A stretch of DNA of 24,713 nucleotides from a virus. Shown in pieces: positions 2,988 through 24,612 of this stretch. Both the position numbers and the translations under genes were made by a program. The stretch is from positions 1 through 24,713 of IMG/VR virus record IMGVR_UViG_3300049847_000329; one strand, written 5' to 3'. Under the pieces are notes generated by a model. The model was not told the DNA's origin. It worked only from the letters and a program-made list of their open reading frames with translations, and did no database searches. Each line of letters begins with the position of its first letter. Position 1 is the stretch's first letter.

Positions 2988-3695
2988 ATGTGGCCCGACG
3001 TTGCGATTTTGGTACCAACGTATAACCGTGCGGATGTTTGTGTCCGCACGGTTGATTTATTGCTAAAAAACCTTTCTTACTGCGGCGACATGCATTTTCT
3101 TGTCGGGTGTGATGGCACTGACAACACACCCGACAAGTTAGAGGACTGGGCTGCAAGAGAAGGCGTGCGCGACAGGCTCATGGTACTACGTGAGCCTTCT
3201 GGTGGAATAGGCGCAAACATCAATCGCCTAATCGAGCGAGCGCATATGTTCACTGATTTTTACGTGAGTTTAGATGACGACCATCACCTAATCGGCCAGA
3301 TCAGTCTTTCTCGGCATGTTGAGAAGCTGCGCGACGACCGTCAAGCCGGGTGGATTCACCTCATGATGGAGGCGCTAGGCGATGAGCATTTTGATCCGTA
3401 TAAATTTCAAGGCGTTTTAGACAAAGATCATTACTGGCGTATAGACTGGGATTGCCCAGAAAGATTCGTCATGAGTTTTAGGCCGCATATATTTCATCAT
3501 AGGTTTATCGAAGTCATGGGCTATCTAAATGAAGGATTAAAAACCGGCGAGACCGAATGGGAGTATGCAGGCCGAACTAAACGAATTGGCAGTCAAGGCG
3601 GCGGGGTAGATGTTTTAGTGCCGCTATGTGCATATGGGTGTTACCACTGGCGGCATGATGCCGCCGATGTGTCTTGGAATCAAAGGGGGCTTTAA
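2988..3695 (+). CDS. Glycosyltransferase, GT2/GT-A type (235 aa)
   Basis: The N-terminus VAILVPTYNRADV is the first beta strand and nucleotide-binding turn of GT-A fold glycosyltransferases. FYVSLDDDHH places the metal- and sugar-nucleotide-binding Asp triplet at residues 96-98. A C-terminal GETEWEYAGR segment holds acidic residues where GT2 enzymes carry their base. It would transfer a sugar from a nucleotide sugar to an unknown acceptor in the host cytoplasm. It begins three bases after the capsid gene stop and ends in a TAATG overlap with the next gene, so it is transcribed with the capsid gene. This placement suggests a virion protein as acceptor, but a host-modifying or DNA-modifying role is also possible. 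Confidence 0.85.
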   Translation: MWPDVAILVPTYNRADVCVRTVDLLLKNLSYCGDMHFLVGCDGTDNTPDKLEDWAAREGVRDRLMVLREPSGGIGANINRLIERAHMFTDFYVSLDDDHHLIGQISLSRHVEKLRDDRQAGWIHLMMEALGDEHFDPYKFQGVLDKDHYWRIDWDCPERFVMSFRPHIFHHRFIEVMGYLNEGLKTGETEWEYAGRTKRIGSQGGGVDVLVPLCAYGCYHWRHDAADVSWNQRGL

Positions 3696-3994
3696 TGACA
3701 AATATATTGCTAGGCAAGGCGATCCACTACGTATTGGCGCAGTATGACCTAGGCGAAGGGCGCAAGACTTCAAAGCCGGGGCGACATGTGCCTGGGATCA
3801 TCGTTCAAGATTGGGGCAGCTCAATCAACGCGGTAATTTTCATAGACGGTACTAATGATTTCTGGGATGGTAAACCCGCTGCAAGCCCAGGCCAAGAAAA
3901 ACTTACCCTATGGAGAACCAGTATCACGCGCGATGAAGATACCCGCAAGCCTGGATCGTGGCATTTAGAAGACGACACAATCCAAACCGAATAA
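3695..3994 (+). CDS. Conserved small phage protein of unknown function (99 aa)
   Basis: Start chosen at ATG 3695, which shares one base with the preceding TAA and has AAGGGGGC just upstream; an in-frame TTG at 3674 is less likely. The sequence has GKAIHYVLAQ near the start, then PGIIVQDWG, NAVIFIDGTND, LWRTS and KPGSWH. I recognise this pattern from small proteins encoded near head genes of many phages and have no function for it. It is probably a compact beta-rich fold. It sits between two glycosyltransferase genes, with one-base overlaps on both sides. Confidence 0.75.
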   Translation: MTNILLGKAIHYVLAQYDLGEGRKTSKPGRHVPGIIVQDWGSSINAVIFIDGTNDFWDGKPAASPGQEKLTLWRTSITRDEDTRKPGSWHLEDDTIQTE

Positions 3995-5925
3995 TGGCGA
4001 CACTCTCCCTAGAAGTAACCCGGTCAGACTACACCATAGAGGGTATGCGTAGGCTACGCAGTGCGGCTAGCGTGTGGTCTAGCGACGAGGTTGTTGCCGC
4101 GCAGGTGGAGCGCGAGACCCGTAGACCGTGCCCAAACAATCCCATAGATGCAGATACCTACGCCCGCCTGAAGGCCGAAAAATCTAACGGGCTGGTCTGT
4201 GTGGTAATCCCTAACTACAATTACGGGGCCTATGTTGGTAGTGCCATCATGTCGGCGATTAAGCAAACTCGCCGCCCAGATGAAATAATCATCGTAGACG
4301 ATGCCAGTACCGACAACTCTATTGAGGTAATTAATGCTTCGATAGAGCAAGCCGACAAAGCCGGGATCAGTGCGAGGCTCATTCAGCATGACGTAAATTC
4401 TGGTACCGTGGGCGCATCTCGTAATACTGGCATATCTGCAACGATATGTGAGTACATCGTGTGTCTAGATAGCGATGACATGATCGAACCGCTGTATATC
4501 GAGACACTACTAAACGCGATTAAGTCTCGCCCTGATGTCGGTGTAGTTTATTCGGGCGTAAGGACACTCGAAGAAAACGAGGGTAACGCAATTAGGTTAT
4601 GGGAGAACTGGCCGCCTCTATTTAATTGGGGCTGGATGACGACAAAATCCGAGACGATTAATAACTGTATCCCAGTTGCGAGTATGTTTAGGCGCGAGAT
4701 GTGGCATCGCGCAGGCGGCTATGACGCTGCAATTAGAAGCGCTGAAGACGTTGATTTCTGGCTGCGCGGGTTGTCGCTGGGGTTTGATGCAGTAAAGGTC
4801 ACCAGCGAGCCGCTATTTACCTATCGACGGCATGGAGCAAGCATGAGTACGTCCCGTAGGCCCGATAATATTAGGTATTGGCAACGCGCCTATGACGGAT
4901 ATAAAGCACTTGCTTCACCGTGCGGTGAAGCACCTACGTTTAGAGATTACACCCACCCGCTAATTAGCGTGATTATTCCAGTCGGCCCTAGTCATGCTGC
5001 GCTTGTTAAAACCGCGCTGTATTCGCTTGATGCGCAGACATATAAAAACTTTGAAATAATCGTCGTAGACGATACCGATCAAGATATCGCGCATGTGGTT
5101 AGATCTATTCGCCCGTACGTGCGGGTGATTAGTGATGGTAATTCTGGCGTGAGCGCGGCCAGAAACAAAGGTATAGAAGCGGCGCGGGGCAAGTTGGTTT
5201 TATTTCTAGACGCAGACGACTATCTAGCCGCCGATGCGCTTGAGGTGATGCTAAAAACTTATCTGGGAGCGCGCGGCGGATACGTATATGCAGGCTGGCA
5301 TATCGTGGGCGAGCGCGGTGAGATTACCAGTAGCCACGAAGCACCTCAACATCATACGATTGATTGGATGAGTCCAAGCACACGCGGGATGCACCCCGTG
5401 ACGGTGCTTATGCCGACTGAACACGCCAGGCGAATTAGATTCGATATAGATGTACCAGTATTTGAAGACTGGGACTTTTTCGCGCGTTGCGCGATGAATG
5501 CGCTATGGGGCACGACTGCGCTAAAGCCCTTATTGTTTTATCGCGCCACGACTGGCGCGCGCAGAAAACTAAGCGAGGACAATATTAATATTATGCGTAC
5601 TCGTGTAAAAGAGCGCTATGAGCCGCATATAGCCGAGGTAATGAATATGGGGTGCTGCGGAAACACTGAGCCTATCGAGTCTATATATAACCAAGCATAC
5701 GATCCAGCGTATCGATACTCGTTTACGCCAACAGGAAAGGTTTTGTACGATTACATTGGCGATTATGCCGCGCCGGTGTTTTATTTTGGTAAATACCAGG
5801 CTTATAAAGGTTGCCCACCAATCGAAGTAGACCCAGGCGATAAAAATAAAATCGAGTCTACGGGGGTTTTTGTGCCACACGAGAATGCGCCAACGCATGA
5901 GCCGGCCTTGATGGAGGATCGATGA
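3994..5925 (+). CDS. Tandem-domain glycosyltransferase with C-terminal extra module (643 aa)
   Basis: Two GT2 domains are visible. Domain 1 (about 66-300) has VVIPNYNYG at 70-78, IIIVDDAS at 98-105, CLDSDDM at 157-163 and EDVDFW at 251-256. Domain 2 (about 322-530) has ISVIIPV at 324-330, IIVVDDT at 355-361, FLDADDY at 404-410 and EDWDFF at 491-496. Both keep the acidic motifs, so both may be active. Residues 550-643 form a separate module starting MGCCGN and holding VLYDYIGDY, YFGKYQAY and a VDPGDK...GVFV ending; similar modules occur as small stand-alone phage proteins. Start chosen at ATG 3994 (TAATG overlap); no Shine-Dalgarno is visible, so coupling is likely. A host surface-glycan role is the alternative to virion glycosylation. 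Confidence 0.85.
   Translation: MATLSLEVTRSDYTIEGMRRLRSAASVWSSDEVVAAQVERETRRPCPNNPIDADTYARLKAEKSNGLVCVVIPNYNYGAYVGSAIMSAIKQTRRPDEIIIVDDASTDNSIEVINASIEQADKAGISARLIQHDVNSGTVGASRNTGISATICEYIVCLDSDDMIEPLYIETLLNAIKSRPDVGVVYSGVRTLEENEGNAIRLWENWPPLFNWGWMTTKSETINNCIPVASMFRREMWHRAGGYDAAIRSAEDVDFWLRGLSLGFDAVKVTSEPLFTYRRHGASMSTSRRPDNIRYWQRAYDGYKALASPCGEAPTFRDYTHPLISVIIPVGPSHAALVKTALYSLDAQTYKNFEIIVVDDTDQDIAHVVRSIRPYVRVISDGNSGVSAARNKGIEAARGKLVLFLDADDYLAADALEVMLKTYLGARGGYVYAGWHIVGERGEITSSHEAPQHHTIDWMSPSTRGMHPVTVLMPTEHARRIRFDIDVPVFEDWDFFARCAMNALWGTTALKPLLFYRATTGARRKLSEDNINIMRTRVKERYEPHIAEVMNMGCCGNTEPIESIYNQAYDPAYRYSFTPTGKVLYDYIGDYAAPVFYFGKYQAYKGCPPIEVDPGDKNKIESTGVFVPHENAPTHEPALMEDR
4911..4932. repeat. Inverted repeat at GT domain border
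   Basis: TGCTTCACCG and CGGTGAAGCA form a ten-base inverted repeat separated by two bases. It encodes residues about 306-313, exactly in the linker between the two glycosyltransferase domains. There is no T-run after it, so it is not a typical terminator. It may be chance or a scar of gene fusion. Confidence 0.4.
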
Positions 5926-6212
5926 GTATTGAGCGTATCGTCATCGCTGGGCTAATTGCCTATCGGGTGAGCCGTATCGTTATCGCTGACGATGGGCCAT
6001 TTGACGTACTTGCAAATTTACGCGCTAGGGCCAGTATCAATAAACAAGATACCTGGTGGCGTAGAGGACTGGCGTGTATGGCGTGTGTGTCGTTTTGGGT
6101 TGGGGTTGTTTCTATCTTTGTGCTGGGCGAGCGTGAATTAATCGGGGTTGTGAGCGGCGGGTTGGCTGCATCAACCATTGCGATACTGGTTAGCCGCAAT
6201 GCGAAAGTTTAA
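5922..6212 (+). CDS. DUF1360-like membrane protein (96 aa)
   Basis: ATGA overlap with the glycosyltransferase gene. The start, IVIAGLIAYRVSRIVIADDGPFDVLANLRARA, is typical of DUF1360 proteins: a hydrophobic helix, then an RxxRxxxxDxGP-type segment and an LR motif. A second segment, LACMACVSFWVGVVSIFVLG, holds the conserved CxxC before a Trp and continues as a membrane helix; a third hydrophobic stretch lies near residues 74-90. The family is common in phages and spore-formers and has no known reaction. A lysis-related role is possible because another small membrane protein follows, but nothing in the sequence proves it. Confidence 0.75.
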   Translation: MSIERIVIAGLIAYRVSRIVIADDGPFDVLANLRARASINKQDTWWRRGLACMACVSFWVGVVSIFVLGERELIGVVSGGLAASTIAILVSRNAKV

Positions 6213-6369
6213 ACAACCAAACCTAGTTATTGCGCTTGTCGCGCTGGTCATCATTGGACTAGTACTGTTAGCGCTGGCTGCGATTGTCAGCGCAGTTGTT
6301 CGAAACGCCCCTACCTGGATGGGGGTGCTAATAATTATCGTCGTAATCGCTTTTTTAGTTAAGGAGTAA
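6199..6369 (+). CDS. Small two-helix membrane protein (56 aa)
   Basis: The chosen ATG at 6199 overlaps the end of the DUF1360-like gene by 14 bases. The protein begins MRKFKQ (basic, cytoplasmic), then has two hydrophobic helices, LVIALVALVIIGLVLLALAA and WMGVLIIIVVIAFLV, separated by a short polar turn. Size and topology resemble class II holins, but many small phage membrane proteins look like this and no endolysin gene is visible nearby. The stop overlaps the AAGGAG ribosome binding site of the next gene. I do not assign a function. Confidence 0.6.
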   Translation: MRKFKQPNLVIALVALVIIGLVLLALAAIVSAVVRNAPTWMGVLIIIVVIAFLVKE

Positions 6370-7935: not shown

Positions 7936-8376
7936 ATGAATTCAGGCGTATTTATGGCCGAGATGAGGCAGGTATCTGTAACGATAGCTAAAACGTTAGT
8001 TCAGATCGATGCCCCAGCGACTAAAACAATAGAAATTATCCGAGCCGAGGTGAGCTTTAGCTCTATTGCCTCAACTGCAATAGAGGTTGGGCTAAAAAAA
8101 GTTACCACCGCTGGCACTAAAACCGGCTTCACGCCGATAAGGTTACAAGGCGCGGCAGCAGCAGCGTCAGCGGGTACCAACAACACCGTCGAAGGGACAT
8201 CTGGCGACCTGCTAATGCAATGGTACGTCAACTATCTAAGTGGGCTGGTTTATTTTCCAGCGCCAGAAGAAAGAATTATTTTGGCTCCATCTGAGCGCAT
8301 CGCGCTATATCTACCCAGTGCGCCGGGTGCGGGAATTACGATTGATGCGTTTATTGTTTGGGGTGAGAGTGGCTAA
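7936..8376 (+). CDS. Conserved phage structural protein with PxPEER motif (146 aa)
   Basis: The core runs from a short beta hairpin with a TIAKTLVQIDAPATKTIEIIRAEVSF region through a disordered-looking Ala-rich loop to YFPAPEERIILAPSERIALYLPSAP. The last segment resembles the P-x-PEER-x-x-V-x-P-x-x-R motif of a family of about 140-residue phage proteins with no assigned function. It is probably all-beta and virion-associated. Two starts are possible, ATG 7936 and ATG 7954; I chose the first because AGGA lies eight bases upstream. TAATG overlap with the repeat protein gene follows. Confidence 0.65.
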   Translation: MNSGVFMAEMRQVSVTIAKTLVQIDAPATKTIEIIRAEVSFSSIASTAIEVGLKKVTTAGTKTGFTPIRLQGAAAAASAGTNNTVEGTSGDLLMQWYVNYLSGLVYFPAPEERIILAPSERIALYLPSAPGAGITIDAFIVWGESG

Positions 8377-9767
8377 TGGCGTTTGTATTTCGTCGTCCGT
8401 TTGATGCAAGAAACCGTGGGCCTAGCGCGGTTATTCTTGCGTTATCTGGTGGCGGGGGTGATGTTAGTGTTACTCCCGACCCAGCGGCATCGAGCGCCGT
8501 CACAATCGCGCCCAGCGTAATACTAGGGGCGCTGGTCATCGCCCCCAACCCAGCGGCATCGAGCGGGGTAACAATTGCGCCTAGCGTGGTAATGGATTTG
8601 GCTGTTACGCCCAGTCCTGCTACGGCTAGCATCGTCACGATTAACCCCAGCGTGGTGCTAGGTAGTCTCGTCGTTGCACCTAACCCCGCTACCTCTGCGA
8701 GTGTGGCAATTGCACCTAGTATTGTGCTGGGTAGCGTCGTGGTTGCGCCCGCGCCCGCTACCTCTGCGGGCGCGGCAATTGCGCCCAGCGTGATACTGGG
8801 GGCGTTGGTGGTTGCTCCCAGCCCAGCGAGCGCGAGCGCTATCACAATCAATCCAGGCGTAATACTGGGGGCGCTAACTATTACGCCGAGTCCCGCGCAA
8901 GCCAGCGTCGTCACAATTAACCCCAGCGTAGTGCAGTCATCTATTAGTGTTACGCCTAACCCCGCGCAGGCGAGCGTTATCACAGTCAACCCCAGCGTGA
9001 TTATGGGCGGGTTGGTAGTTGCGCCAAGCCCCGCGCAGGCGAGTGTTATCACGATTAACCCCAGCGTGGTATTAGGTAGTCTCGTCGTTGCGCCTAACCC
9101 CGCTACGGCAAGCCTGGTTGCGGTTAACCCTGGGGTAATTCAGTCATCGCTCGCGCTCGCGCCCAGTCCAGCGCAGGCGAGCGCCATCACGATTAATCCG
9201 GGCGTGATTATGGGCGCGTTGATTGTTGCGCCTAACCCAGCGAGCGCGAGCGCTATCACGATTAATCCTAATGTCATCGCTGGAAATAATATTAGTATTA
9301 CGCCCGCGCCCGCGAGCGCGAGCGCCATCACGATTAGTCCAGCCGTTGTACAAAGCTCGATGGCGTTTACGCCTAACCCCGCGAGCGCGAGCGCCATCAC
9401 GATTAACCCTAATGTGATACTTGGGGCGCTAACTATTACGCCAAGCCCCGCGCAGGCAAGCGTTATCACGATTAATCCAGGTGTGATACTTGGGGCGCTG
9501 GTGGTCTTGCCCGCGCCTGCACAAGCCAGCGTTATCACGATTAATCCAGGTGTGATACTAAGCAGCGTTGTAATCGCGCCAAGCCCCGCGCAGGCAAGCC
9601 TAATCACGATTAATCCAGGCGTGATACTAAGCAGCGTTGTAATCGCGCCAAGTCCAGCCAGCGCGAGACTAATTACGATTAATCCAATCGTGATCGGCGG
9701 CGGTGGCGCGATACTAGAGGCGCTATTCAAGGCGATGGCGCGCAAAATGTTTAACAGGGTCAAATAA
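8376..9767 (+). CDS. Repeat protein built of 18 x 23-residue beta repeats (463 aa)
   Basis: After a 29-residue start that includes a Gly-rich hinge, the protein is 18 tandem units of about 23 residues with the consensus LxVxPxPAxASxITINPxVILGx (one unit of 22, two of 24). Each unit alternates hydrophobic residues in two short strands joined by Pro-rich turns, which suggests a long beta-solenoid or fibrous rod. The last 19 residues (ILEALFKAMARKMF...) form an amphipathic helix that could anchor or trimerise it. There is almost no charge in the repeat region. Placement among head and decoration genes suggests a surface fibre or head filament. Function is inferred only from architecture; no catalytic motif is present. 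Confidence 0.75.
   Translation: MAFVFRRPFDARNRGPSAVILALSGGGGDVSVTPDPAASSAVTIAPSVILGALVIAPNPAASSGVTIAPSVVMDLAVTPSPATASIVTINPSVVLGSLVVAPNPATSASVAIAPSIVLGSVVVAPAPATSAGAAIAPSVILGALVVAPSPASASAITINPGVILGALTITPSPAQASVVTINPSVVQSSISVTPNPAQASVITVNPSVIMGGLVVAPSPAQASVITINPSVVLGSLVVAPNPATASLVAVNPGVIQSSLALAPSPAQASAITINPGVIMGALIVAPNPASASAITINPNVIAGNNISITPAPASASAITISPAVVQSSMAFTPNPASASAITINPNVILGALTITPSPAQASVITINPGVILGALVVLPAPAQASVITINPGVILSSVVIAPSPAQASLITINPGVILSSVVIAPSPASARLITINPIVIGGGGAILEALFKAMARKMFNRVK
8463..9707 (+). repeat. 69-bp tandem coding repeats (18 units)
   Basis: The units correspond to the 23-residue protein repeats. The 3' units are most alike at DNA level (for example ATCACGATTAATCCAGG recurs from about 9471 onward), while the 5' units have diverged, which suggests recent expansion at the 3' end. 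The repeat also keeps long reverse-strand frames open; these are a by-product of the biased codons. Confidence 0.85.
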
Positions 9768-13140: not shown

Positions 13141-13626
13141 ATGAGCGACGGAAGACAACACACTCCCCATGTGTTTACGAGTACGGGGGTTGAATGCACG
13201 ATAAAACACGTATCTAATATCAAGGTAAGCGAGGCTATTGCGGTGGTACCAAAGCCGGTACCACCGCTAACAGAAGTTAAAAACGCAGATGGCACTGTTA
13301 GGCAAGAACCCAATAGAAGCCACCCAGATTATTTGCAAGCCGAGGCTGAGTACAGAATGGATATGGAGCGGCTACTACGGCTTGTGTACGTTAAATTTGG
13401 CGTTGAGTATGAGCTCACTGATAAAGACATCCGGGACGTGGCTCAGTTTAGAGCTGAGGTTAAGGCAACGTCTGGGCGCGATATGGTTGGCGACGATAAG
13501 ACAATTTTCATTACGTTTTTTGCAATTGGCGATGACCAGGACTATCAGGATTTTGTATCGGTATGCCAGGGTAGGAGCCTAGCGACCGACCCAAAATCGA
13601 CACTTGGCACGAATATTTCGACGTAA
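13141..13626 (+). CDS. Tail assembly chaperone, short form (161 aa)
   Basis: It lies between the probable tail-tube gene and the tape measure, where phages encode lambda G-like chaperones. The protein is soluble, acidic and mostly helical, with KNADGTVRQEPNRSHPDY and a YVKFGVEYELTDKDIRD segment and no enzymatic motif. Near its 3' end is the heptamer CCCAAAA in the correct phase for a -1 ribosomal slip. Ribosomes that do not slip read TDPKSTLGTNIST and stop at 13626. No clear Shine-Dalgarno precedes the ATG. Its role would be to bind the tape measure during tail assembly. Confidence 0.7.
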   Translation: MSDGRQHTPHVFTSTGVECTIKHVSNIKVSEAIAVVPKPVPPLTEVKNADGTVRQEPNRSHPDYLQAEAEYRMDMERLLRLVYVKFGVEYELTDKDIRDVAQFRAEVKATSGRDMVGDDKTIFITFFAIGDDQDYQDFVSVCQGRSLATDPKSTLGTNIST

Positions 13627-13862
13627 AAATCGATGGCGTGCCCGTCAGGCGCTACGTAACCCCCAGATCGGGGATTACGTTTACGCTTGAATTTGAGCGT
13701 AGGCTAGTTGCAAAATGGGCGGGCTACACGTATGAAGCATTTTGTGACCTTGATGGATTTAACCAGGCGGGGCACGTAGCTGCCTATCGAGACTATCAAT
13801 ACATGAGCGCGGCTGAAGCTGAACGCGACAAGCGAAACAATAAAAAAGGCAAACATGGCTGA
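13141..13862 (+). CDS. Tail assembly chaperone, -1 frameshift fusion (about 240 aa, join 13141-13596 and 13596-13862)
   Basis: The second part is open in the -1 frame from 13575 to 13862 and has no good start: the first candidate, GTG 13638, has no ribosome binding site. A slip at 13590-13596 joins TDPK to IDTWHEYFDVKIDGVPVRRYV, then a Lys/Arg- and Tyr-rich domain ending KRNNKKGKHG. This is the G/GT arrangement of lambda-like phages: the shared N-terminus and the longer minor form with a T domain work together to load tail-tube subunits on the tape measure. The fusion ends eight bases inside the tape-measure gene. Total length by count is 152 plus 88 residues. Confidence 0.7.
13590..13596 (+). 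promoter_or_regulatory. Programmed -1 frameshift site CCCAAAA
   Basis: The zero-frame codons are GAC CCA AAA TCG, so the heptamer reads C CCA AAA, matching X XXY YYZ. After slipping by one base both tRNAs can re-pair with CCC and AAA, and translation continues ATC GAC ACT TGG in the -1 frame. Confidence 0.75.
13606..13642 (+). promoter_or_regulatory. Possible stimulatory hairpin after slip site
   Basis: GGCACG at 13606-13611 can pair with CGTGCC at 13637-13642 with a 25-base loop, starting nine bases after the slip site. The stem is short, so its role as a frameshift stimulator is uncertain. Confidence 0.3.
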
Positions 13863-16488
13863 GGATGCTGGTGTAAATTTAGTCGCTCAAGGCGGTGCTG
13901 GGTTTGTTGGGCAAATGAACTCAGCATCAGGCGCGTACAAGGGCTTTGTGGATGGACTAGGTGATGGCGCTAACCGCGCGCCTGGATTTAGCGAAGTCGT
14001 TACGGGTGCGCTTCGTAAAATGGGCGAAATGGCCGTCACTGCTGGTTTACAGGCGGCCCATGCGATTGGTGAGTTTGTCGTAGATTCGATCAAAGTTGCC
14101 GGCGATTTTGAGGGCGGTATGAATCGCTTTGGCGTTGCGATAGGTAACGCCATGCAAGGGTCGGGTAAGAGCACCGAGGATTTTAAACAATTATTTTTAA
14201 CGCTCGGTGCCGAGCTGCCCGTATCGACCAGTGAGGTACAGGACGCTGCGATAGAGCTGGCTAAAGGCGGGCTTGATCCACTTGTGATTGCGGGGGATCG
14301 CGCGAAAGGCACAATGGGCGCATTAGAGTCAAGCCTAAAGTTTGCGGCGGCTGCGCAGATGGATCTAAAAGGCGCGGCTGAGCTGAGTATCAAAATGCTT
14401 GGGTCGTTTGTTCCCACAACCGCTAGCGCGGCTGAGCAAACAACGTTTATGGCTCATGCACAAGATATATTAGTAAAGGCGGCGGGTGCATCTACGCTTG
14501 ACGTGGCTCAGCTAGGCGATGCGATGTTGCAAGCTGGCGGGCAAGCCAAAACCGCTGGGTTGGGCTATGACGATTTTGCTACCACGATGGGATTGATATC
14601 GCCTTCGTTTGGTTCAGCCGCCGAAGCCGGTACCAGTTTTAAGAATTTCTTAATCCGGCTTATCCCTCAAACAACAGACGCAAAGGCGGCAATGAGCGAC
14701 CTGGGACTGGTAACGTTTGATACGGCTAAGGCTCAAGCGAATTTAGCGGCGGTTGGTATTAATGCCGCTGGCATGAGCGCTGAGCAAATGACCGCCAAAA
14801 TGCTCGAGTATGCAAAATCAGTTGGCATGAGCAAAAAAGATACGGCTGACTGGCTCGGCTCGATGGATAAATCTGCGTTCTATGATGCTCAAGGCAATTT
14901 CATCGGCATGGAGCAAGCGGCGCAGAAGTTGCAGGACGCGACAAAGAACTTAACGGCTGAGCAACGCGTACAGGCATTTCAAACAATTTTCGGCAACGAT
15001 GCCATGGGCGCAGCCGCAACCCTAGCCAGCGGCGGCGGCGAGGCGTATGCAGCGTTTGCTAAAAAAATGGCTGATGCGGCTGGGGTTCAGGCTGCGGCGG
15101 CTGGCACCCAGAAGGGTTTTAACGTTGCAATGGACAATCTCAAGGGTAGCCTAGAGGCGTTGCAAATAACAATCGGGTCGTATTTACTGCCAATCCTCAC
15201 AGATCTATTTAATAACTATTTAGCGCCGGGGGTGAACTACGTTAGAGACTTAGTAACGTCCTTTGCAGGGGCGCAAGATAAGGTGGGTTTTTTGTCTAAA
15301 ACGTTCGGTGACTTCAGCCCAGTCATGGAAGAATTCGGAGCGCAGTTCAATGCAGCAAAAAAGATTATCGGGGATGTAATGGCGCTTATTAATTCAATCG
15401 TGGGGCAGTACCTAAAGTTAATTACAGAGTGGTTTGATAAAAACGGCGCAGACATCAAAAGAACAATGGAGGTTGCGTTTAATGGCATTAAAGATATCGT
15501 CACGCTGGTCATGAAGCTGCTACAAGCGACGATTATTCCCGCGCTTACTGCGATTGCGGGGTTTATCAAAAACCACGGCGACGAAATAAAAATGGTGTTC
15601 GATACAGTCTGGACGGTGATAAAAACATTAATCACCACTGCGCTAACGGTGATACAAAATATTATTAAAATTGTCCTCGCGCTCATTAACGGCGACACAA
15701 AGACCGCAATGGATTTATTGTTTCAAACCTTCGACGTGATACTGAAGGCCATTCAAACGATATTCACGACGGTATTTAATTTAATCTGGTCGTTCATTAA
15801 GGGCGCGATGACCAACATCTACAACACAATCAAAACGCAAATGGAGTTAGCGCGGGCAAAGGTCTTAGAACAGGTAAACAATATCTTAGCTGACGTAACG
15901 AGGGTTTTTACAACTATAGTGGCTGAGGTGGTTAGCAAAGTAACCGAGATCTATAACTCAATCGTGACGTGGTTTACAAACGCCAGAGATAGGGCAATTG
16001 CGCTAGTAGGCGAGATGCTCACTGGTATCAGTAACACGATGATACGAATTAGAGATTCGATCATTAATGCAATTAAAGACGCAGTTAATTTTATTACGTC
16101 CCCCAGCGCTTTGTCGGACTTTATTAGCGCGGGTATAAAAATGGTTGAATCTATCGTGAGGGGGATCAAGGATAGCGCCTCTAAAGTTGTTGACAATCTA
16201 TGGGCTGTGGTGCGAGGCGCATTAGATAAAGTGTTTGAAGAGTTAAAGCGATTTATCTCTAACCCGTTTGGGTATTTTGGCTTGTCTATACCATCGATAG
16301 GCTCACTAATTGGAATAAAGTCGTCTCCGGTAGATGGCGTAGGCGGAAACCCAAAATTGCCGCAATCTATTTCGACAGTTACTAACGTCACCAACAACTA
16401 CAATTTAAGCGTTGCATCAGCCCAATCTCAAGGGAGCGTCGTGTACGACTTTGGAATAATGCGTGCAATTGCACTAGGAGCGCACTAA
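13855..16488 (+). CDS. Tail tape measure protein (877 aa)
   Basis: It is the second-longest gene in the window and follows the chaperones. The N-terminal part, residues about 70-420, matches the phage tape-measure core: helical, Ala/Gly-rich, with SVGM and QAGGQAKTAGLGYDDFATTMG and FKNFLIRLIPQTTDAKAAMSDLGL segments. Residues about 430-700 are long amphipathic and hydrophobic helices (for example VWTVIKTLITTALTVIQNII), usual for the part that inserts into the host membrane. At about 1.5 angstrom per residue, the known ruler rule, the tail would be near 130 nm. No peptidase or lysozyme domain is visible. The ATG overlaps the chaperone stop by eight bases. Confidence 0.9.
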   Translation: MAEDAGVNLVAQGGAGFVGQMNSASGAYKGFVDGLGDGANRAPGFSEVVTGALRKMGEMAVTAGLQAAHAIGEFVVDSIKVAGDFEGGMNRFGVAIGNAMQGSGKSTEDFKQLFLTLGAELPVSTSEVQDAAIELAKGGLDPLVIAGDRAKGTMGALESSLKFAAAAQMDLKGAAELSIKMLGSFVPTTASAAEQTTFMAHAQDILVKAAGASTLDVAQLGDAMLQAGGQAKTAGLGYDDFATTMGLISPSFGSAAEAGTSFKNFLIRLIPQTTDAKAAMSDLGLVTFDTAKAQANLAAVGINAAGMSAEQMTAKMLEYAKSVGMSKKDTADWLGSMDKSAFYDAQGNFIGMEQAAQKLQDATKNLTAEQRVQAFQTIFGNDAMGAAATLASGGGEAYAAFAKKMADAAGVQAAAAGTQKGFNVAMDNLKGSLEALQITIGSYLLPILTDLFNNYLAPGVNYVRDLVTSFAGAQDKVGFLSKTFGDFSPVMEEFGAQFNAAKKIIGDVMALINSIVGQYLKLITEWFDKNGADIKRTMEVAFNGIKDIVTLVMKLLQATIIPALTAIAGFIKNHGDEIKMVFDTVWTVIKTLITTALTVIQNIIKIVLALINGDTKTAMDLLFQTFDVILKAIQTIFTTVFNLIWSFIKGAMTNIYNTIKTQMELARAKVLEQVNNILADVTRVFTTIVAEVVSKVTEIYNSIVTWFTNARDRAIALVGEMLTGISNTMIRIRDSIINAIKDAVNFITSPSALSDFISAGIKMVESIVRGIKDSASKVVDNLWAVVRGALDKVFEELKRFISNPFGYFGLSIPSIGSLIGIKSSPVDGVGGNPKLPQSISTVTNVTNNYNLSVASAQSQGSVVYDFGIMRAIALGAH

Positions 16489-18998
16489 TGCCGATATCGA
16501 CTGTCCTTACCCAGCGCAATGCGGTACTATCTATCGTGCCGCATTTGATCGATCCGGGATTAATCGGCTGGTGGGGTGTCGTGGTACCAGAAGGCACAAC
16601 AAACCTTTGCTATAACCCCAGCTTTGAAGGCCCTAGCGCTTCGGGCTGGAATGGCTATGCAACCGGGAGCGCTTCCGGTACCAGTACCGTTGTTGCGGCA
16701 AATGCCTATAAGGGGCAGCATTCATATCGAGCCGTGAAAACCACTGGCGCATTAGGCGATAAATACGGGGCGTATTTTGTCATTAGTATTACCGCAACTA
16801 AACATTACACATTTAGCGTTTATGCGTCGTGCCCTATTGGGGCGGCTGAGCTGACCATCGATGGATCGTATGGAGCTGGCGGTGCGGCGATGGTGCAAAC
16901 AGTACAGATATCGGGGTCTAACTGGAAACGTTACAGCGTTACGATACATTGTCAAAATTCAGCGACAGTAAATATGCGGGTGTATCTGACAAGCCTAACT
17001 GGCACGTTATATTTTGATTGTGCCCAAATTGAGGCTAAGCCGTACGCAACGACGTACTGCGATTTGTATCAAGAAGATTGTGGGCGCGACGATCCCTATA
17101 ACGCGGCCAGTCCAATATCAAGGTCTAGCCTCTCAAGAAAAGGAGGTCGCGTCGTGAACCTGAAACAATTTCGCTTTACATTACTGGCGATGGTTGGGCT
17201 AGGGATGAGCGGGCTAACGGTCTCTGATGCGCAGTTTGCGGTTGCGGGGGGTGGCTATTACCAGCGGTCAGTTGCCAATATTAGGCAATTTACTCTATCA
17301 GGGACGCTAGATTGCGTTGACAAATATCAATTAGCCGAGGCTAGACAAGGGTTAATCGATGTGTTTTTTCCGTCCAACTCATCGAATAGACAAAAAATTA
17401 GGCTTATCTACCAGCCCATGAATGATGAGGGTGAATCTGGGCTAGTGCCTGTTTACATTGATTGCGTATATGTATCGGGGTTGGAAGGAAACTTTAACAA
17501 CTTTCATCGCGAGATGCTGCATCTCACGTTTAGAACCTACTTACCGTACATTGTTGCTACCAGCGAAAAGACAAGTGGTACGGGTTTAAGTTTCCCGGCA
17601 TCGCTAAACGGCGGGGTAAATGGATTAAATCTAATCAAGCGCGATTCGTTGGGGAACTGGTCGAGTGTTGGTAATCCAGCCGATGCAAACTATCCGACGA
17701 TTGTTGATCGCGTGATTGTTACCCGCGCGGGCGATGTCTACACGATAAATCTGTCTGAAAGGATTTTGTATAGATACACCCTTTCCACTAATGCCTGGTC
17801 GAAAATAACCGTAGGTACCGCTGGGCACATTACAGCGCTGGCAGAGGCATTTGATGGGAGAATTTATTTAGGTGGGACGTTCACCGGATCGGGGCTATCG
17901 CGCATGGCCTATTACGCTCCAGGCGGCGGTAGCCTTACGCAGGTGTCTACAGGGGCAGATAACGGCGAAGTCAAAGCGATCAAAGTTGGCAACGACGGCC
18001 GTATATGGTTTGCAGGTAGCCAAGACACGTACGGGGGCGTGACTAAAGGTGCCATTGTTGTGTACGACCCCGTTACGGCTGTTATCTCGGCGGGGTCGAA
18101 CCCGGCGTATATCGGAAATTTCACCGATATGGAGATAGACAAAATAGGGCGCACTGTTTACGTGATGGCTCCATCTGGGGCAGTGCTCAGAATAGATACC
18201 GCGACCCTAATTGTTACCGACGATTTAACCGTCCCCAGTCACGCCGCGAGCACCTACTATGGAATTGCGTTTGACCCGCAAGGCAACCTTTGGCTAGCGG
18301 GCAGTTTTACAGTGGTAAATGGCACGACTGCGCCAGGGCTAGCTGTTTGGAATGGCGTTGCGTGGCTTCCGGCCCCCGCCCGGTTTGACCCTAACAGCGC
18401 TTCGCCAGTGATTAAATTTTTAGACTGGACGCAAGACGGTTTGTATCTGGGTGGGTCTGGTATAAAGGTTCAGAATTTTACGATTCTGACCGCTGACGCA
18501 TTTTTATGGACTGGCTCAGCGTGGCAAGTTGCTACGTTCGACATGACCGGGGGCGTGTATCCAACATGCGCGTATTCGAGCGCGCAAGGTGATTTGTATT
18601 TTGGGGTAGACGCAACCCCTACGACAGTCGTAGTGCCCATATCGACAACTGTCGCAAACGGTTCTGCGATGCCTTCGCCTGCGGTGATTTATTTAACTGG
18701 CCCGATGCGAGTATTAAATATTCGCAATTCGACCAACCAGGCGGTACTTAATTTCGACTTCGTTATAGGCAATGCAGAAACAATCCGTATTGAGACTGGC
18801 GCGATATGGAGCATTATTAGCGACAAACGCGGCGATGTGAGTTATGCGTTATTGCCTGGCTCTAGCCCAGCGCTATTTACGCTCATGCCAGGAGACAACA
18901 AAATCAGTATCTATACAACTGGTACCAATGGATCGAGCGTTGCGTGGGTAGAGGCGACGAATACATATAACTCGCTTGACGGTGTAATGGTGCGCTAA
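16488..18998 (+). CDS. Distal tail protein with carbohydrate-binding and propeller-like inserts (836 aa)
   Basis: TAATG overlap after the tape measure, in the distal tail (Dit) slot. Residues 36-190 look like a CBM4/9-type carbohydrate-binding module (TTNLCYNPSFEGPSASGW, then HYTFSVYASC and LYFDCAQIEAKPYATTY). Residues about 200-355 resemble the Dit core (RQFTLSGTLDC, IDVFFPSN, MLHLTFRTYLPY). Residues about 385-705 have repeated IYLGGTFTG, IWFAGSQDT, LWLAGSFTVVNG and LYLGGSG segments spaced like propeller blades. The C-terminus (TLMPGDNKISIYTTGT ... SLDGVMV) looks like the second half of a siphovirus tail component. It probably forms the ring at the tail tip and binds sugars on the host. Confidence 0.7.
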   Translation: MPISTVLTQRNAVLSIVPHLIDPGLIGWWGVVVPEGTTNLCYNPSFEGPSASGWNGYATGSASGTSTVVAANAYKGQHSYRAVKTTGALGDKYGAYFVISITATKHYTFSVYASCPIGAAELTIDGSYGAGGAAMVQTVQISGSNWKRYSVTIHCQNSATVNMRVYLTSLTGTLYFDCAQIEAKPYATTYCDLYQEDCGRDDPYNAASPISRSSLSRKGGRVVNLKQFRFTLLAMVGLGMSGLTVSDAQFAVAGGGYYQRSVANIRQFTLSGTLDCVDKYQLAEARQGLIDVFFPSNSSNRQKIRLIYQPMNDEGESGLVPVYIDCVYVSGLEGNFNNFHREMLHLTFRTYLPYIVATSEKTSGTGLSFPASLNGGVNGLNLIKRDSLGNWSSVGNPADANYPTIVDRVIVTRAGDVYTINLSERILYRYTLSTNAWSKITVGTAGHITALAEAFDGRIYLGGTFTGSGLSRMAYYAPGGGSLTQVSTGADNGEVKAIKVGNDGRIWFAGSQDTYGGVTKGAIVVYDPVTAVISAGSNPAYIGNFTDMEIDKIGRTVYVMAPSGAVLRIDTATLIVTDDLTVPSHAASTYYGIAFDPQGNLWLAGSFTVVNGTTAPGLAVWNGVAWLPAPARFDPNSASPVIKFLDWTQDGLYLGGSGIKVQNFTILTADAFLWTGSAWQVATFDMTGGVYPTCAYSSAQGDLYFGVDATPTTVVVPISTTVANGSAMPSPAVIYLTGPMRVLNIRNSTNQAVLNFDFVIGNAETIRIETGAIWSIISDKRGDVSYALLPGSSPALFTLMPGDNKISIYTTGTNGSSVAWVEATNTYNSLDGVMVR

Positions 18999-20278
18999 TG
19001 CCGATTGACCCAAATATCCAATTTAGAGGTATCGCTAACTATGAGGTTAGGATTTACTCAGCTAACCGTAGACGGTTATTTGCAGTATTGAGCAGCGGCG
19101 CTTCGATTGATGCAGATGAACCTATAGATATATTTGCGCGAACACAAATGCGCTGGGAGGTTCAAGGCCCGTATGTGCGCGGCGGGTTTTATAAACTCGA
19201 TTACGTCATGAATGAGTCAGATGTGGGGGCGCTAACGCTAGAAATGCCGGCATTGTTTCCCTCAACGTGGCTGACGATAGATTGCAGTATCGAAGTGTGG
19301 CGCTCTACTGATATTGATGGAAAGTCTTGGGCGCTTGATGGGTCAAGGTTGTGGCTTGTAAATAAGGTGCGCTGGGTGGGCGGTGCTACCCCTAGACTAA
19401 TCATCGGGGCAGTAGATACGATAGATATTCTGAGGCGCAGAATTGTGGCTTATGCCGCTGGAACAACGTACTCAAGTAAAGGCCCCGAATACATCGATGA
19501 AATTATCAGGCAGGTAATTGTCGAAAACTTCGGTAGTGTAGCGGTGAACCATTCGCGTGATATCACTCAATTTGATACGGGGTTTGAATGGACGCATCAG
19601 GGAGCGCCAGTAATATTTACCTTCTCGGCGGGGCTACTTCCGCAAACACGTAAGGGATTTGCGTGGCGTAATGTATGGGAGGTTGTTAAAGAATTGTTAG
19701 GCGAGGCGGCGACATTGGGGACATATGCGTCAGTGCAATGCAGGTTTTTACCCAGTATCGATACGATAGAGTTTGTGCTTATTGTTGGCACTACTGGTGC
19801 AGACCGTGGGCTAAAAAGCGCCAACCCATTGATTTTGAGTGAAGATTCTGGCACGCTTAAAGACGTGAGTATCGAGCTGGACTGGACATCGACAGCCAGC
19901 GCTATCTATGCGGGTGGCGCTGGCGAGGGCGCTAATAGATTGATTTTGTATGCAACTGACCAAGCGCGGCAGTTTGCGAGTCCATTTGCGCGTATAGAGA
20001 AATTTATAGAAAACACATCGATAGAAAACAGAGCCGCGCTTCAATCTGAGGTCAATAGCGCGTTGCGTGAAGCGCGACCTATAAAACGGTTTGAAGGCTT
20101 TGTAAACGAGACAGAAACGCTGCGTTATGGCTACGACTATGCGTTAGGTGCGACACTGGTTGCATCGGCAGAAAATCAAATGTTTAACTGCCGCATTATC
20201 CAGGTGCAGGTCACTGTTGATAGTAAAGGCGAAACAATTCGTGCTCGGCTTGCGCAAGACGAGTTATTGGAGTTTTAA
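18998..20278 (+). CDS. Tail hub protein, ReqiPepy6 Gp37-like (426 aa)
   Basis: It follows the distal tail gene by a TAATG overlap and precedes a fibre gene, the normal place of the tail hub (Tal-type) protein. The sequence has YEVRIYSANRRRLFAVL, WEVQGPYVRGGFYKLDY, WLVNKVRW and IIGAVDTIDILRRRIV near the start and a GYDYALGATLVA ... RLAQDELLEF ending. This outline is like the Siphovirus ReqiPepy6 Gp37-like family, in which beta domains build the hub. I see no peptidase or glycosidase motif. It would form the cap of the tail tube and carry fibres. GGAG precedes the next gene inside its 3' end. Confidence 0.65.
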   Translation: MPIDPNIQFRGIANYEVRIYSANRRRLFAVLSSGASIDADEPIDIFARTQMRWEVQGPYVRGGFYKLDYVMNESDVGALTLEMPALFPSTWLTIDCSIEVWRSTDIDGKSWALDGSRLWLVNKVRWVGGATPRLIIGAVDTIDILRRRIVAYAAGTTYSSKGPEYIDEIIRQVIVENFGSVAVNHSRDITQFDTGFEWTHQGAPVIFTFSAGLLPQTRKGFAWRNVWEVVKELLGEAATLGTYASVQCRFLPSIDTIEFVLIVGTTGADRGLKSANPLILSEDSGTLKDVSIELDWTSTASAIYAGGAGEGANRLILYATDQARQFASPFARIEKFIENTSIENRAALQSEVNSALREARPIKRFEGFVNETETLRYGYDYALGATLVASAENQMFNCRIIQVQVTVDSKGETIRARLAQDELLEF

Positions 20279-20982: not shown

Positions 20983-21588
20983 ATGGCAAAGAAATCAACC
21001 TCGCCGAGCCTGGCTAGCCTAGACCAGCTCGCGCTGAGCCTAAACCCAGTACCAGATAAGGCCAGCACCGGACACGCCTACACGCATATCTACGATCAAC
21101 TATTTAGCCAGTATCGTGACGATAGAATCACAATACTTGAAATAGGCGTGTGGGAGGGTGCGAGTATTGATCTATGGCTGAAGTATTTTTTAGGAGCGCG
21201 CATTATCGGCGTTGATATAGATTTATCGCGCGCGAAAGATAAATTCACCGACAATGCCAGAGTCACGCTTTATCAAGGGAACCAGGAAGATAGCGAGTTT
21301 TTAAAATCATTACCTGGTGCTGACATCGTAATTGACGACGGCGCGCATTTAGTCTATCCAACTGTAAGCGCATTTCATTGGCTATGGCCTAAAACTCGAT
21401 TGATGTATATCGTAGAAGATCTGCACACCTACTATTGGCCCGAATCTAATCCATCTAATTCAGACCAATGGCTAATAGAGCTGGCGCGCGATTGTCTAGG
21501 TCGGGGTAAAACCCATGCAGACAATGCAGCAACCGAGATCAAAAGCATTCAGTTTTATCAATCGTTAGCGGTAATTAAAAAGATATGA
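20983..21588 (+). CDS. Class I SAM methyltransferase, sugar-O-methyltransferase-like (201 aa)
   Basis: Residues 51-60 [10 protein letters not shown] are the glycine-rich SAM-binding motif I and GVDID at 76-80 carries the acidic ribose-binding end. IVIDDGAH at 115-122 and [11 protein letters not shown] at 142-152 resemble the metal-binding motifs of MycE-type (mycinamicin 2''-O-methyltransferase-like) enzymes, which methylate sugar hydroxyls. The [14 protein letters not shown] lead-in at 28-41 is also typical. The likely reaction is SAM-dependent O-methylation of a sugar, possibly one added by the phage's own glycosyltransferases. Its start directly follows the fibre stop and its stop overlaps the next gene by ATGA. 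A host-glycan or other small-molecule substrate is possible. Confidence 0.8.
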
Positions 21589-22931
21589 ATTTACTACCGA
21601 TAGTTTTGGCGCTTTTAATACAAGCCCCCACGCCAACCCCAGCGGCGGTAATGCATTTGCCGAAAATGGGAGTTGATAGAACCCTAACCCCCACGCCAAC
21701 CCCCACGCTCACGTATACACCTACTCCCACGCCAACTAACACGCCAACCAACACCCCCGCGCCCACGCCCACGCCAACGCCAACGCCAACCAACACCCCG
21801 ACAAACACCCCCACGCCCACGCCAACCCCCGCGCTCAAAATCTACTACGGCTCGCTGTTTGGCGCAGGTGATTTATACAACCTTGATATAGGCGGTAAAT
21901 GGAGACAATCAGTATCGATCAGGTTTAGGGCTATTACGACTGATAGGCTCAGATCGATCAGAGTATTTTTTACAGACAATCGAAATGCACCAGGATACGC
22001 AAGTGGCAGCGGCGGCAAAATCCTTATACAGGTATTTGCAGACAGCGGCACAGCCAACCATGAGCCATCAGGCGCGGCGCTGACTGCGATTAATTTCTCA
22101 CCCAATTACGTTGGCGGTAAAGACCCTCTTGGTACCAGTGGCATATTTAGGTCGCTGGAGTTTGGGGAGCCTATTACGCTGAGCGCTGGGAGCCTGTACC
22201 ACGTTGTATTTAGTAATGTCGATCCCTCACCGACAAACAATTATTTAGGGATCGATAACAACATCGTATTTAATGGTGAATCACAACCCACGATAACAAC
22301 GCTGGATTTGGGGTTGTTGTTTAGAGATAAAACAACTAGTGGCTGGGGCGATGCTAGCAGGAATTTTGCATCAATCAAGCCCAGCTCGATGAGCCCAATT
22401 ATTTCGCTCTCTTATTTGAGCGGCAGAACTCAAGGCGATGGTTACATGGAGGTATGGTGGCAGCAACCCAGATATGTATCGGGGGTTCAGGGCGTTAGGG
22501 AAATATTCACACCCACTAAAACCATTAAGGCGCTGCGGACAATATCGATTAGGCTAAAAAGATTGTCCGGTGATATTGCCCTTTCTATCAGGGTGACGAG
22601 ACTCGACGGCAGTCTAGTTGCACAAACCGATATACCGGCTAGTGCGATCAAACTCAACCGCCACGACTGGGCTACGGGGGTGTTTGCTGCACCGTTTGAT
22701 TTAGCGCTGGGAACGCAATATTTTTTATCACTGGCGAGCGTCGGCAATTATGAGGTGATTGCCATTCGAGATGGAGGCGCGTTTGGGTTTGGGCGCGAGA
22801 CAACCTTTAGCGATGGCTACGTGCAATTTAATCGTGGCGATGGCAAGGGTTGGCAGGGTTGGTACGGCTGGTCGTATGAGGGAGCGCCAAACCAGGTATT
22901 TGGCGATTTGCAGTTTTACCTATCTGACTAG
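21585..22931 (+). CDS. Thr-Pro linker protein with two beta-sandwich domains (448 aa)
   Basis: The N-terminus [13 protein letters not shown] is a hydrophobic, signal- or anchor-like segment without the usual basic start. Residues 33-82 are a Thr-Pro-Asn-rich linker (runs of [13 protein letters not shown]). The C-terminal part has two jelly-roll-like halves: about 85-275 ([47 protein letters not shown]) and about 285-448 ([38 protein letters not shown]). Similar domains occur in phage tail-end proteins. It is the last gene of the late operon, after the methyltransferase, so it may be a receptor-binding or secreted accessory protein. The linker is a plausible O-glycosylation site; this is inference. 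Confidence 0.65.
21681..21830 (+). repeat. Thr-Pro-Asn coding repeat (linker)
   Basis: Short CCCACGCCAAC-type units encode residues 33-82 of the linker. The opposite strand shows a long GlyVal-rich open frame that is only a mirror of this repeat. Low complexity makes this stretch prone to length changes. Confidence 0.8.
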
Positions 22932-23006: not shown

Positions 23007-23034
23007 GCAAGCGCCTGACGCGTCAGGCGCTTGC
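23007..23034. repeat. Perfect 28-bp palindrome
   Basis: GCAAGCGCCTGACG is followed directly by its exact reverse complement, with no spacer. As RNA it would make a GC-rich hairpin, but neither strand carries a T-run after it. It may be a terminator element for the plus-strand operon, a protein-binding site or a recombination site. Confidence 0.6.
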
Positions 23035-23054: not shown

Positions 23055-23085
23055 ACGCCCCTGTTAGCACTGCTAACAGGGGCGT
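23055..23085 (-). terminator. Rho-independent terminator for the minus-strand operon
   Basis: A 15-bp perfect stem (ACGCCCCTGTTAGCA and its complement) with a one-base centre is followed on the minus strand by TTTATTT. It lies 20 bases after the stop of the last minus-strand gene, so it fits as that operon's terminator. Confidence 0.8.
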
Positions 23086-23104: not shown

Positions 23105-23251
23105 TTAGGGGGCGCGCCCCTTGCGCGGCGGGGGCTTAGGTGCCTTAGACGACACAATTTTGAGTATTAGCGCCTGAACGATATTGCGGGGCTGGCCCTG
23201 GCGCTTTGCTGCGCGCGCGAGCTTGAGGGCATCGGTTGATACGTGTTTCAT
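23105..23251 (-). CDS. Small basic protein of unknown function (48 aa)
   Basis: The start MKHVSTDALK at 23251 lies one base after the TAA of the zinc-ribbon gene, in a TAACATG junction like that at 24269-24273, so translation is likely coupled. An upstream in-frame ATG at 23281 would overlap that gene by 29 bases. The protein has a helical middle (DALKLARAAKRQ ... NIVQALILKIV) and a basic Pro-rich tail (PKPPPRKGRAP), and ends with a second TAA nearby. It may bind nucleic acid or protein; I recognise no family. It is the last gene before the terminator. Confidence 0.5.
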   Translation of the reverse strand: MKHVSTDALKLARAAKRQGQPRNIVQALILKIVSSKAPKPPPRKGRAP

Positions 23252-23252
23252 G

Positions 23253-23462
23253 TTATCCGCAGTCCGCGCATACTGGCTCATCAAAAAATCCGAACCCAGT
23301 TGCAGGCATTCCACAATAGTGACAGGATCGCGATTTGCTCAGCTCGCTTGGTTTTACGATGTATTCGTAGCGACTATCCTCTATTTTGATGATGATGAGT
23401 CCTTTTTCGGTTTCATGTTTTCGCTGAGAGATGACCAATTTATTTTGATAGTACTTGTCCAT
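23253..23462 (-). CDS. Zinc-ribbon-like small protein (69 aa)
   Basis: A strong ribosome binding site (AAGGGAGGAAA, 23466-23475) precedes ATG 23462, so this is a real gene. The N-terminal 40 residues are Lys/Ile-rich and beta-like. The C-terminus CHYCGMPATGFGFFDEPVCADCG split here as CHYC and CADC places Cys47, Cys50, Cys65 and Cys68 in two CxxC knuckles that would bind one zinc ion. Such small proteins often bind nucleic acid or protein partners, but no specific role can be assigned. The SD overlaps the end of the preceding gene. Confidence 0.75.
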   Translation of the reverse strand: MDKYYQNKLVISQRKHETEKGLIIIKIEDSRYEYIVKPSELSKSRSCHYCGMPATGFGFFDEPVCADCG

Positions 23463-23473
23463 GATTTCCTCCC

Positions 23474-23851
23474 TTACGACTGATTTACCTGGCGGCCGAT
23501 TTTTTTACTAACAAACGCTGCGCCATACTTTTTAACCGCTGCGCGCCGACCTGCGGTGCGTTTGCGCATCTCGATCTGAGACGCGAGCTCGGCTTCAATT
23601 TGCGCGTCAGACATACCATATAGATAGCTAAAGGAAGTCTTTCCTTGAATATAGCTGTCGCCGGTTTTTTCACTGCGGAATGTCTCGAATGCCCAGTTGA
23701 CGATAGCCTGTAGGCGTAGGCACGTCTGATAATCGAGATTGCGACCCTGGAGCCCGCCCGCGATTTTATACAGACCCGATACGTATTTTTCGACGCGTTG
23801 ATTAATAATCAACTCGCTATCTGGGGGGAGTTTAACAATTTGAGTGTTCAT
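23474..23851 (-). CDS. Hypothetical protein with basic C-terminus (125 aa)
   Basis: ATG 23851 overlaps the stop of the 35-residue membrane peptide gene by ATGA, with no visible Shine-Dalgarno, so coupling is likely. The protein is helical, with VEKYVSGLYKIAGGL, RLQAIVNWAFETFRSEK and MSDAQIEAELASQIEM, and ends in a strongly basic RKRTAGRRAAVKKYG stretch. A DNA-binding or packaging-related role would fit such a tail, but I recognise no family. The gene ends just before the strong ribosome site of the zinc-ribbon gene. Confidence 0.65.
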   Translation of the reverse strand: MNTQIVKLPPDSELIINQRVEKYVSGLYKIAGGLQGRNLDYQTCLRLQAIVNWAFETFRSEKTGDSYIQGKTSFSYLYGMSDAQIEAELASQIEMRKRTAGRRAAVKKYGAAFVSKKIGRQVNQS

Positions 23852-23955
23852 ATAAATAGTCCGAGTAGAGAAATAGAAATTACTGTTAGCGTTGCGATGA
23901 CTACCACTGCGAGTATGCAGCGGCGGTTAATGGGGTCTGATAAAAATGTGTTCAT
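23848..23955 (-). CDS. Small single-span membrane peptide (35 aa)
   Basis: ATG at 23955 overlaps the TGA of the upstream gene and its own TGA overlaps the ATG of the next gene, giving ATGA at both ends. The peptide is MNTFLSDPINRR followed by a hydrophobic helix of about 22 residues, CILAVVVIATLTVISISLLG, ending LFI. A short cytoplasmic, partly basic start and one helix suggest an N-in membrane anchor. No Shine-Dalgarno is visible, so it would be made by reinitiation. The double overlap makes it a convincing small gene that gene finders may miss. Function unknown. Confidence 0.65.
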   Translation of the reverse strand: MNTFLSDPINRRCILAVVVIATLTVISISLLGLFI

Positions 23956-24269
23956 GCTAATTCAAGCGCTAGGGCTGCTAGACGCTTAGCGATCCAGCGC
24001 CCGACCGCTCGGCTTGATTGCGTAGTAGGCGTTACCCAGCGCATCGGGATAAACCCGTCTACTGAGCGCGCGGGGTTGTCTGTCACCTCATACTGCGCTG
24101 AGACGACCTTGCCCATAAAATCTCGCGACATAGGAATCACTCTAACGGTCACTGCGTCCCCCGCGCTGTTAGTCAAGCGGAAGATGTGTCGCCCCAGCAT
24201 CACGGGGGCGCACTGAGCAATACTTGCGATATCTGAAATATTAACGGGAATACTGGTTGGGTTCGTCAT
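23952..24269 (-). CDS. Hypothetical protein (105 aa)
   Basis: Start chosen at ATG 24269, one base after the TAA of the preceding gene (TAACATG) with GAGG a few bases upstream; an in-frame TTG at 24281 is less likely. The protein has a beta-rich first part (GRHIFRLTNSAGDAVTVRVI, SAQYEVTDN) and a helical basic C-terminus (SSRAVGRWIAKRLAALALELA). Its stop overlaps the small membrane gene by ATGA. I recognise no family. Confidence 0.65.
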   Translation of the reverse strand: MTNPTSIPVNISDIASIAQCAPVMLGRHIFRLTNSAGDAVTVRVIPMSRDFMGKVVSAQYEVTDNPARSVDGFIPMRWVTPTTQSSRAVGRWIAKRLAALALELA

Positions 24270-24270
24270 G

Positions 24271-24612
24271 TTAGGCCTCAATATTCATCCCATTGGCGCG
24301 CATGTAGTTAGATACTGCAAACGGGGTAAATGTCCGTAAAAACCCGAAACGGATTTTTTTAGCACATGCTGCAACGCTGCGTAGATCAGCGGGTTGTAGG
24401 CAAAGCGCGTAATCAAACGTCAGCGCGTGCACCTCGCAGTAGCTAGAACTGGCATCAGCTAGCTCGATGACGTAAAAAATCGGGACGCTGGCACCAGTGA
24501 CCTCAATGGTCGCCCTATTAAGCGCGTGATCGTGACTAATCACTTTATGGCCGAGCGTTTGAGCGACTTCGTTAATGAATTCGTGGGGGGATTTATCGCA
24601 ATAGTTTGTCAT
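24271..24612 (-). CDS. Hypothetical protein (113 aa)
   Basis: ATG 24612 has AGGG four bases upstream. It is the first complete gene of the minus-strand operon. The protein is alpha/beta with SPHEFINEVAQTLGHKV at the start, a beta region (NRATIEVTGASVPIFYVIEL) and a Cys-containing helical end (LRSVAACAKKIRFGFLRT). No motif is recognised. The following gene starts one base after its TAA, so the two are co-translated. Confidence 0.65.
   Translation of the reverse strand: MTNYCDKSPHEFINEVAQTLGHKVISHDHALNRATIEVTGASVPIFYVIELADASSSYCEVHALTFDYALCLQPADLRSVAACAKKIRFGFLRTFTPFAVSNYMRANGMNIEA

Follow-up and report, generated by a model that had tools for sequence, protein, structure and literature searches.

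A probable gene for a 35-residue single-span membrane peptide in a packed minus-strand operon of a tailed-phage fragment

The virus record IMGVR_UViG_3300049847_000329 (IMG/VR), analysed here over its whole length of 24,713 bases (the window), is a fragment with tailed-phage genes. Its minus strand very probably carries a real gene of 35 codons, designated r3, which is the third of six genes in a packed operon. On the strength of its sequence context, we consider it likely that r3 is a small phage gene for a single-span membrane peptide whose translation is coupled to that of the genes on either side (r2 upstream and r4 downstream; Table 1). The first-pass annotation had proposed a membrane-peptide gene at this position, and the interpretation was partly supported overall: chance statistics, the packing of the operon and a 100-nt gap that would otherwise be left uncoupled all spoke for it.

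Table 1. Features of the minus-strand operon and recognisable plus strand genes
Feature	Coordinates	Strand	Remarks
r1	24271..24612	-	First operon gene seen, 113 aa; no convincing homologue
r2	23952..24269	-	Gene before r3; 105 aa with the ATG start, 109 aa with the TTG at 24281; GAGG Shine-Dalgarno
r3	23848..23955	-	35 aa, predicted single-span membrane peptide; ORF list, hydrophobicity rank, chance estimates
Predicted transmembrane helix, r3 residues 13-35	23851..23919	-	Hydrophobicity scans; Arg11-Arg12 just before
ATGA overlap, r3 start and r2 stop	23952..23955	-	Sequence, junction table; r2 TGA at 23954-23952
ATGA overlap, r3 stop (TGA) and r4 start	23848..23851	-	Sequence, junction table; r4 ATG at 23851
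r4	23474..23851	-	Gene after r3; 125 aa; z 4.45 for synonymous codons; lacks a clear Shine-Dalgarno
r5	23253..23462	-	69 aa, CxxC pairs (zinc-ribbon-like); strong Shine-Dalgarno
r6	23105..23251	-	48-aa basic protein, last operon gene; TAACATG junction
Perfect hairpin and T-rich tail	23055..23085	-	Likely terminator of the minus-strand operon
Tape measure protein	13855-16488	+	Recognisable
Minor tail or endopeptidase-like protein	18998-20278	+	Recognisable

The coordinates and the 35-residue length first given for r3 were exact on the sequence; the strand, which had been left unstated, is minus, and reading from 23955 to 23848 gives the product MNTFLSDPINRRCILAVVVIATLTVISISLLGLFI. The ATGA overlaps reported at both ends were likewise exact, both in the sequence and in the junction table, so that at each junction r3 and a co-directed neighbour share a 4-nt stop/start overlap, the arrangement of a coupled gene pair. 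With 35 codons in a virus record, r3 lies within the limit of 50 codons that marks a small phage protein. The nearest in-frame stop 5' of its ATG is two codons away, so there can be no longer version of the gene and the ATG at 23955 is the sole possible common start. Prodigal has a usual minimum of 90 nt, and r3, at 108 nt, is above that.

The six small genes of the operon run from 24612 to 23105 and face the plus strand tailed-phage genes. AlphaFold models built without alignments gave a mean pLDDT of 49 for r2 and 45 for r4, and scans for Rfam families and tRNAs found nothing. A plus strand ORF antisense to r3 (23798-23989, 63 aa) was not accepted as a gene, since it spans the r4 and r2 junctions in antisense orientation and has a TTG start. 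Just upstream of the operon, at the end of the contig (24636-24691), there are three TCCTGAGGCGTA-like 12-mers that are possible regulatory sites, and a spacer-free perfect palindrome of 14 bp (GCAAGCGCCTGACG/CGTCAGGCGCTTGC, 23007-23034) lies between the convergent operons, beside the minus-strand terminator.

Residues 13-35 of r3, CILAVVVIATLTVISISLLGLFI, form a single uncharged segment of 23 residues, which is enough for a helix to span a membrane, and the maximum 19-residue Kyte-Doolittle mean of the peptide was 2.79, ranking second among the window's 138 ORFs of 30-70 aa. Biological-scale insertion values summed to -3.8 (an unweighted sum). The clean hydrophobic helix that the first-pass annotation had noticed was thus borne out, and helices of this hydrophobicity proved rare among random open frames (see below). 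Under the positive-inside rule, an Arg-Arg flank is expected on the cytoplasmic side of the membrane. As such a pair stands ahead of the helix, r3 is predicted to have an N-in, C-out topology, in which the short hydrophilic N-terminus with its two arginines would be cytoplasmic, the helix would span the inner membrane, and the C-terminus would lie at the outer face with no exported tail.

Profile searches (PHROGs, Pfam, NCBIfam and PADLOC) gave no convincing homologue for any of r1 to r6, the matches of r3 in PHROGs, Pfam and NCBIfam being noise below the cut-off (NapE, E 0.16; a SpoV-family peptide, E 0.043). When r1, r2, r3 and r4 were compared with phages by tblastn, only two matches were obtained, both to r1 and both at E 0.4, and the 3' region had no match to phages by blastn. 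Scanning viral contigs for exact peptides from r1, r2, r4, g1, g2 and g16 gave no match, and a scan of genome contigs returned one weak, uninformative match. An alignment-based scan of viral contigs with the tail endopeptidase-like g16 recovered 39 distant loci, mostly at 24-31% identity and at best 31-32%; no relatives of r1 to r6 were present at these loci, and r2 and r4 were absent from 17 whole records among these distant relatives. A second alignment scan of viral contigs found only the record of L023, one of these 39 contigs, which has several tail genes in a common order with this virus. The kinship of the virus with known ones is thus only distant. By profiles, phage tblastn and viral-contig scans r2 and r4 are orphans, and this counts against the r3 call, as does the failure of profiles and phage tblastn to find a homologue of r3 that would show conservation.

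Since no relatives of r3, r2 or r4 were found in the records searched, which may not have included those nearest to the window, the function of r3 had to be inferred. Nothing extends past the helix on the outer side, and contact within the bilayer is for that reason the most plausible mode of action; the helix might dock on a membrane protein of the host or of the phage and modulate that protein during infection, a specific role that we put forward tentatively. The size and hydrophobicity of r3 would also fit a lysis accessory, in other words a small holin-like or antiholin-like protein with one span, aiding permeabilisation or timing lysis, and this reading is favoured by the observation that single-span proteins are common beside phage holins and often toxic if overproduced (PMC11797047). 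However, the orphan genes flanking r3 include no endolysin match (the record is a fragment, and an endolysin may lie outside it), r3 itself had no holin profile match in PHROGs, Pfam or NCBIfam beyond sub-cut-off noise, its operon runs opposite to the structural genes, and likelier membrane lysis candidates are found on the plus strand at 5922-6212 and 6199-6369, so that a part in lysis seems unlikely. A role for r3 in superinfection exclusion or host takeover, with the peptide lodged in the inner membrane and either barring the DNA of other phages from entry or inhibiting a host envelope protein, seems to us rather unlikely. An operon of small orphans set apart from the structural operon would resemble accessory or early gene clusters, but r3 had no match in PADLOC or PHROGs, and the fact that we know of no exclusion protein as short as r3 also counts against this idea.

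The r3 start lacks a Shine-Dalgarno sequence: pairing with the anti-Shine-Dalgarno was 0.0 kcal/mol for r3, compared with -5.6 for r2 and -11.3 for r5, values to be read bearing in mind that the host's ribosome-site rules may differ. For r4 the pairing was -3.2 kcal/mol, around the 25th percentile of background and so no clear site, and clear sites were also present at many plus strand genes. Because its ATG has no such site, r3 is probably translated via reinitiation after r2. Ribosomes that terminate on r2 would reinitiate at the shared ATGA to read r3, and the second ATGA would take them on into r4 in the same way. Reporter tests in E. coli and Haloferax showed that termination-reinitiation is nearly abolished once the spacing reaches about 20 nt, and across 1,695 species the most frequent spacings are -4 and -1 nt (PMC10666635). 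With r4 starting 100 nt past the r2 stop, and about 20 nt being nearly abolishing already, the r4 start would be uncoupled if r3 were absent. As r3 bridges this gap to a gene that is itself without a clear Shine-Dalgarno, it probably passes ribosomes to r4, and we infer that translation of r3 would explain both the r3 and the r4 start. Coupled overlapping gene pairs described before (PMC6728339, PMC10666635) resemble this arrangement in the 4-nt ATGA and in the absence of a Shine-Dalgarno proper to r3; the difference is that here two successive couplings would run through one 35-codon gene.

Taken further, r3 could represent a new phage membrane peptide family, in which r3, r2 and r4 would form one small complex that alters a host membrane protein, at a fixed ratio set by two successive termination-reinitiation steps, but we regard this as improbable. 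We give little credence to the idea that r3 is read mainly to deliver ribosomes to r4 and that the peptide has no role: the absence of a clear Shine-Dalgarno at r4 and the exactly 100 nt that r3 bridges with coupling overlaps are what such a relay would have, but a relay needs no uncharged helix of 23 residues, and that is rare in random open frames.

To estimate how often the overlaps would arise by chance, a second-order Markov model of the window's trinucleotide statistics was used to generate 80 Mb. Stop/ATG pairs at the r3 spacing numbered 52,214. Both the open frame and an ATGA at either end were present in 164 of them (0.31%), not one of which encoded a transmembrane-like helix (19-residue mean hydropathy of at least 2.5). 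The probability of a 19-residue mean of at least 2.5 given an open frame was 0.055% in mononucleotide shuffles, 0.09% in dinucleotide shuffles and 0.013% with the window composition. Overlaps and helix together have a probability of about 1e-6 per gap, a figure good to an order of magnitude only because the hydrophobicity threshold was chosen after seeing the peptide. Thus, the initial argument that the double overlap and the helix are hard to explain by chance holds for the two jointly; the overlap alone is a normal junction here. Tabulation of the plus strand junctions gave seven 1-nt (TAATG) overlaps, two 4-nt overlaps and several gaps of 0-7 nt, and since genes in this virus usually join by an overlap of 1 or 4 nt, a double ATGA is by itself unremarkable. 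The r3 junctions match the style of the genome, and this supports r3 as a gene. In the plus strand operon the longer apparent intergenic gaps hold overlapping ORFs; 100 nt left empty between r2 and r4 would therefore break with the style of the genome.

The codon evidence was mixed. Synonymous-codon z scores were 1.88 for r3 (weak at 35 codons), 2.46 for r2 and 4.45 for r4, so that r3 leans toward the virus's genes, and the GC3 of r3 (0.39) was below that of all other tabulated genes, which counts against the gene call. Statistics of this kind bear on whether r3 is a gene; accumulation of the peptide is beyond their reach. A chance open frame inside a non-coding r2-r4 gap, to which the missing conservation evidence and the weak codon signal would lend themselves, is unlikely given the joint probability of about 1e-6 per gap and the fact that it would leave r4 with neither coupling nor a Shine-Dalgarno.

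Taken as a gene for a membrane peptide, r3 can be set beside small membrane proteins that are already known. CydX, KdpF, AcrZ and MgtS are host-chromosomal single-span regulators of bacterial membrane complexes, with known partners; r3 resembles them in size and architecture, these proteins having about 30-50 residues, one helix and little outside the bilayer. Small phage proteins (<100 aa and often <50 aa; PMC11323111) have been predicted by the thousand, according to Fremin et al. (2022) as cited in that paper. In its size, its orphan status and its site among small genes r3 is like them, and it differs in being unmatched in the families searched and in the unusually neat ATGA at both ends. 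Ms6 gp27 and Amelie gp29, single-span non-holin proteins of lysis cassettes (PMC11797047), are also small, phage-encoded and built on one helix. They adjoin lysin and holin genes, whereas r3 lies amid orphans on the strand opposite the structural genes, and they have no sequence match to r3. Tiny membrane peptides without an assigned role are common in bacterial viruses, and the annotation of r3 is therefore ordinary in kind: it is a new orphan of a well-known kind, the small phage membrane proteins. If the call is right, the tiny membrane peptides known from phages, whose number is growing, gain one clear orphan, and an exact double ATGA together with a missing Shine-Dalgarno can support a 35-codon gene call without relatives. 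Until r3 can be given a function or placed in a conserved family, its wider importance is limited.

Several features outside the minus-strand operon were recorded in passing. The hydrophobic 96-aa product of 5922-6212 matched phrog_781 (E 1.2e-5), and its gene, in the structural operon, has an ATGA overlap with a glycosyltransferase gene; 6199-6369, in the same operon, encodes 56 aa with two hydrophobic stretches and the top hydropathy among the window's short ORFs. The ORF ranked above r3 in the list of 138, given there as 6178-6369, is probably itself a gene. The products of 5922-6212 and 6199-6369 are candidate holin-type or host-modifying membrane proteins. Two glycosyltransferase-like proteins are encoded in the structural operon at 2988-5925, one of 235 aa (recognised by eye only) and one of 655 aa with GtrB-like PHROG matches. 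A 463-aa protein (8376-9767) has many similar repeats (..PSPAQASVITINPGVILGAL..), and the opposite strand also has long open frames there. A programmed -1 frameshift likely produces a tail-assembly chaperone pair at 13141-13862, where a 161-aa ORF (13141-13626) contains a slippery CCCAAAA at 13590-13596, in frame C CCA AAA, and the overlapping -1 frame (13575-13862) has no stop before position 13855, where the tape measure gene starts. The last structural gene (21585-22931) has a long Thr-Pro repeat linker. Linkers of this kind are common in Chloroflexota proteins, and the one seen here is a weak hint of a Chloroflexota host.
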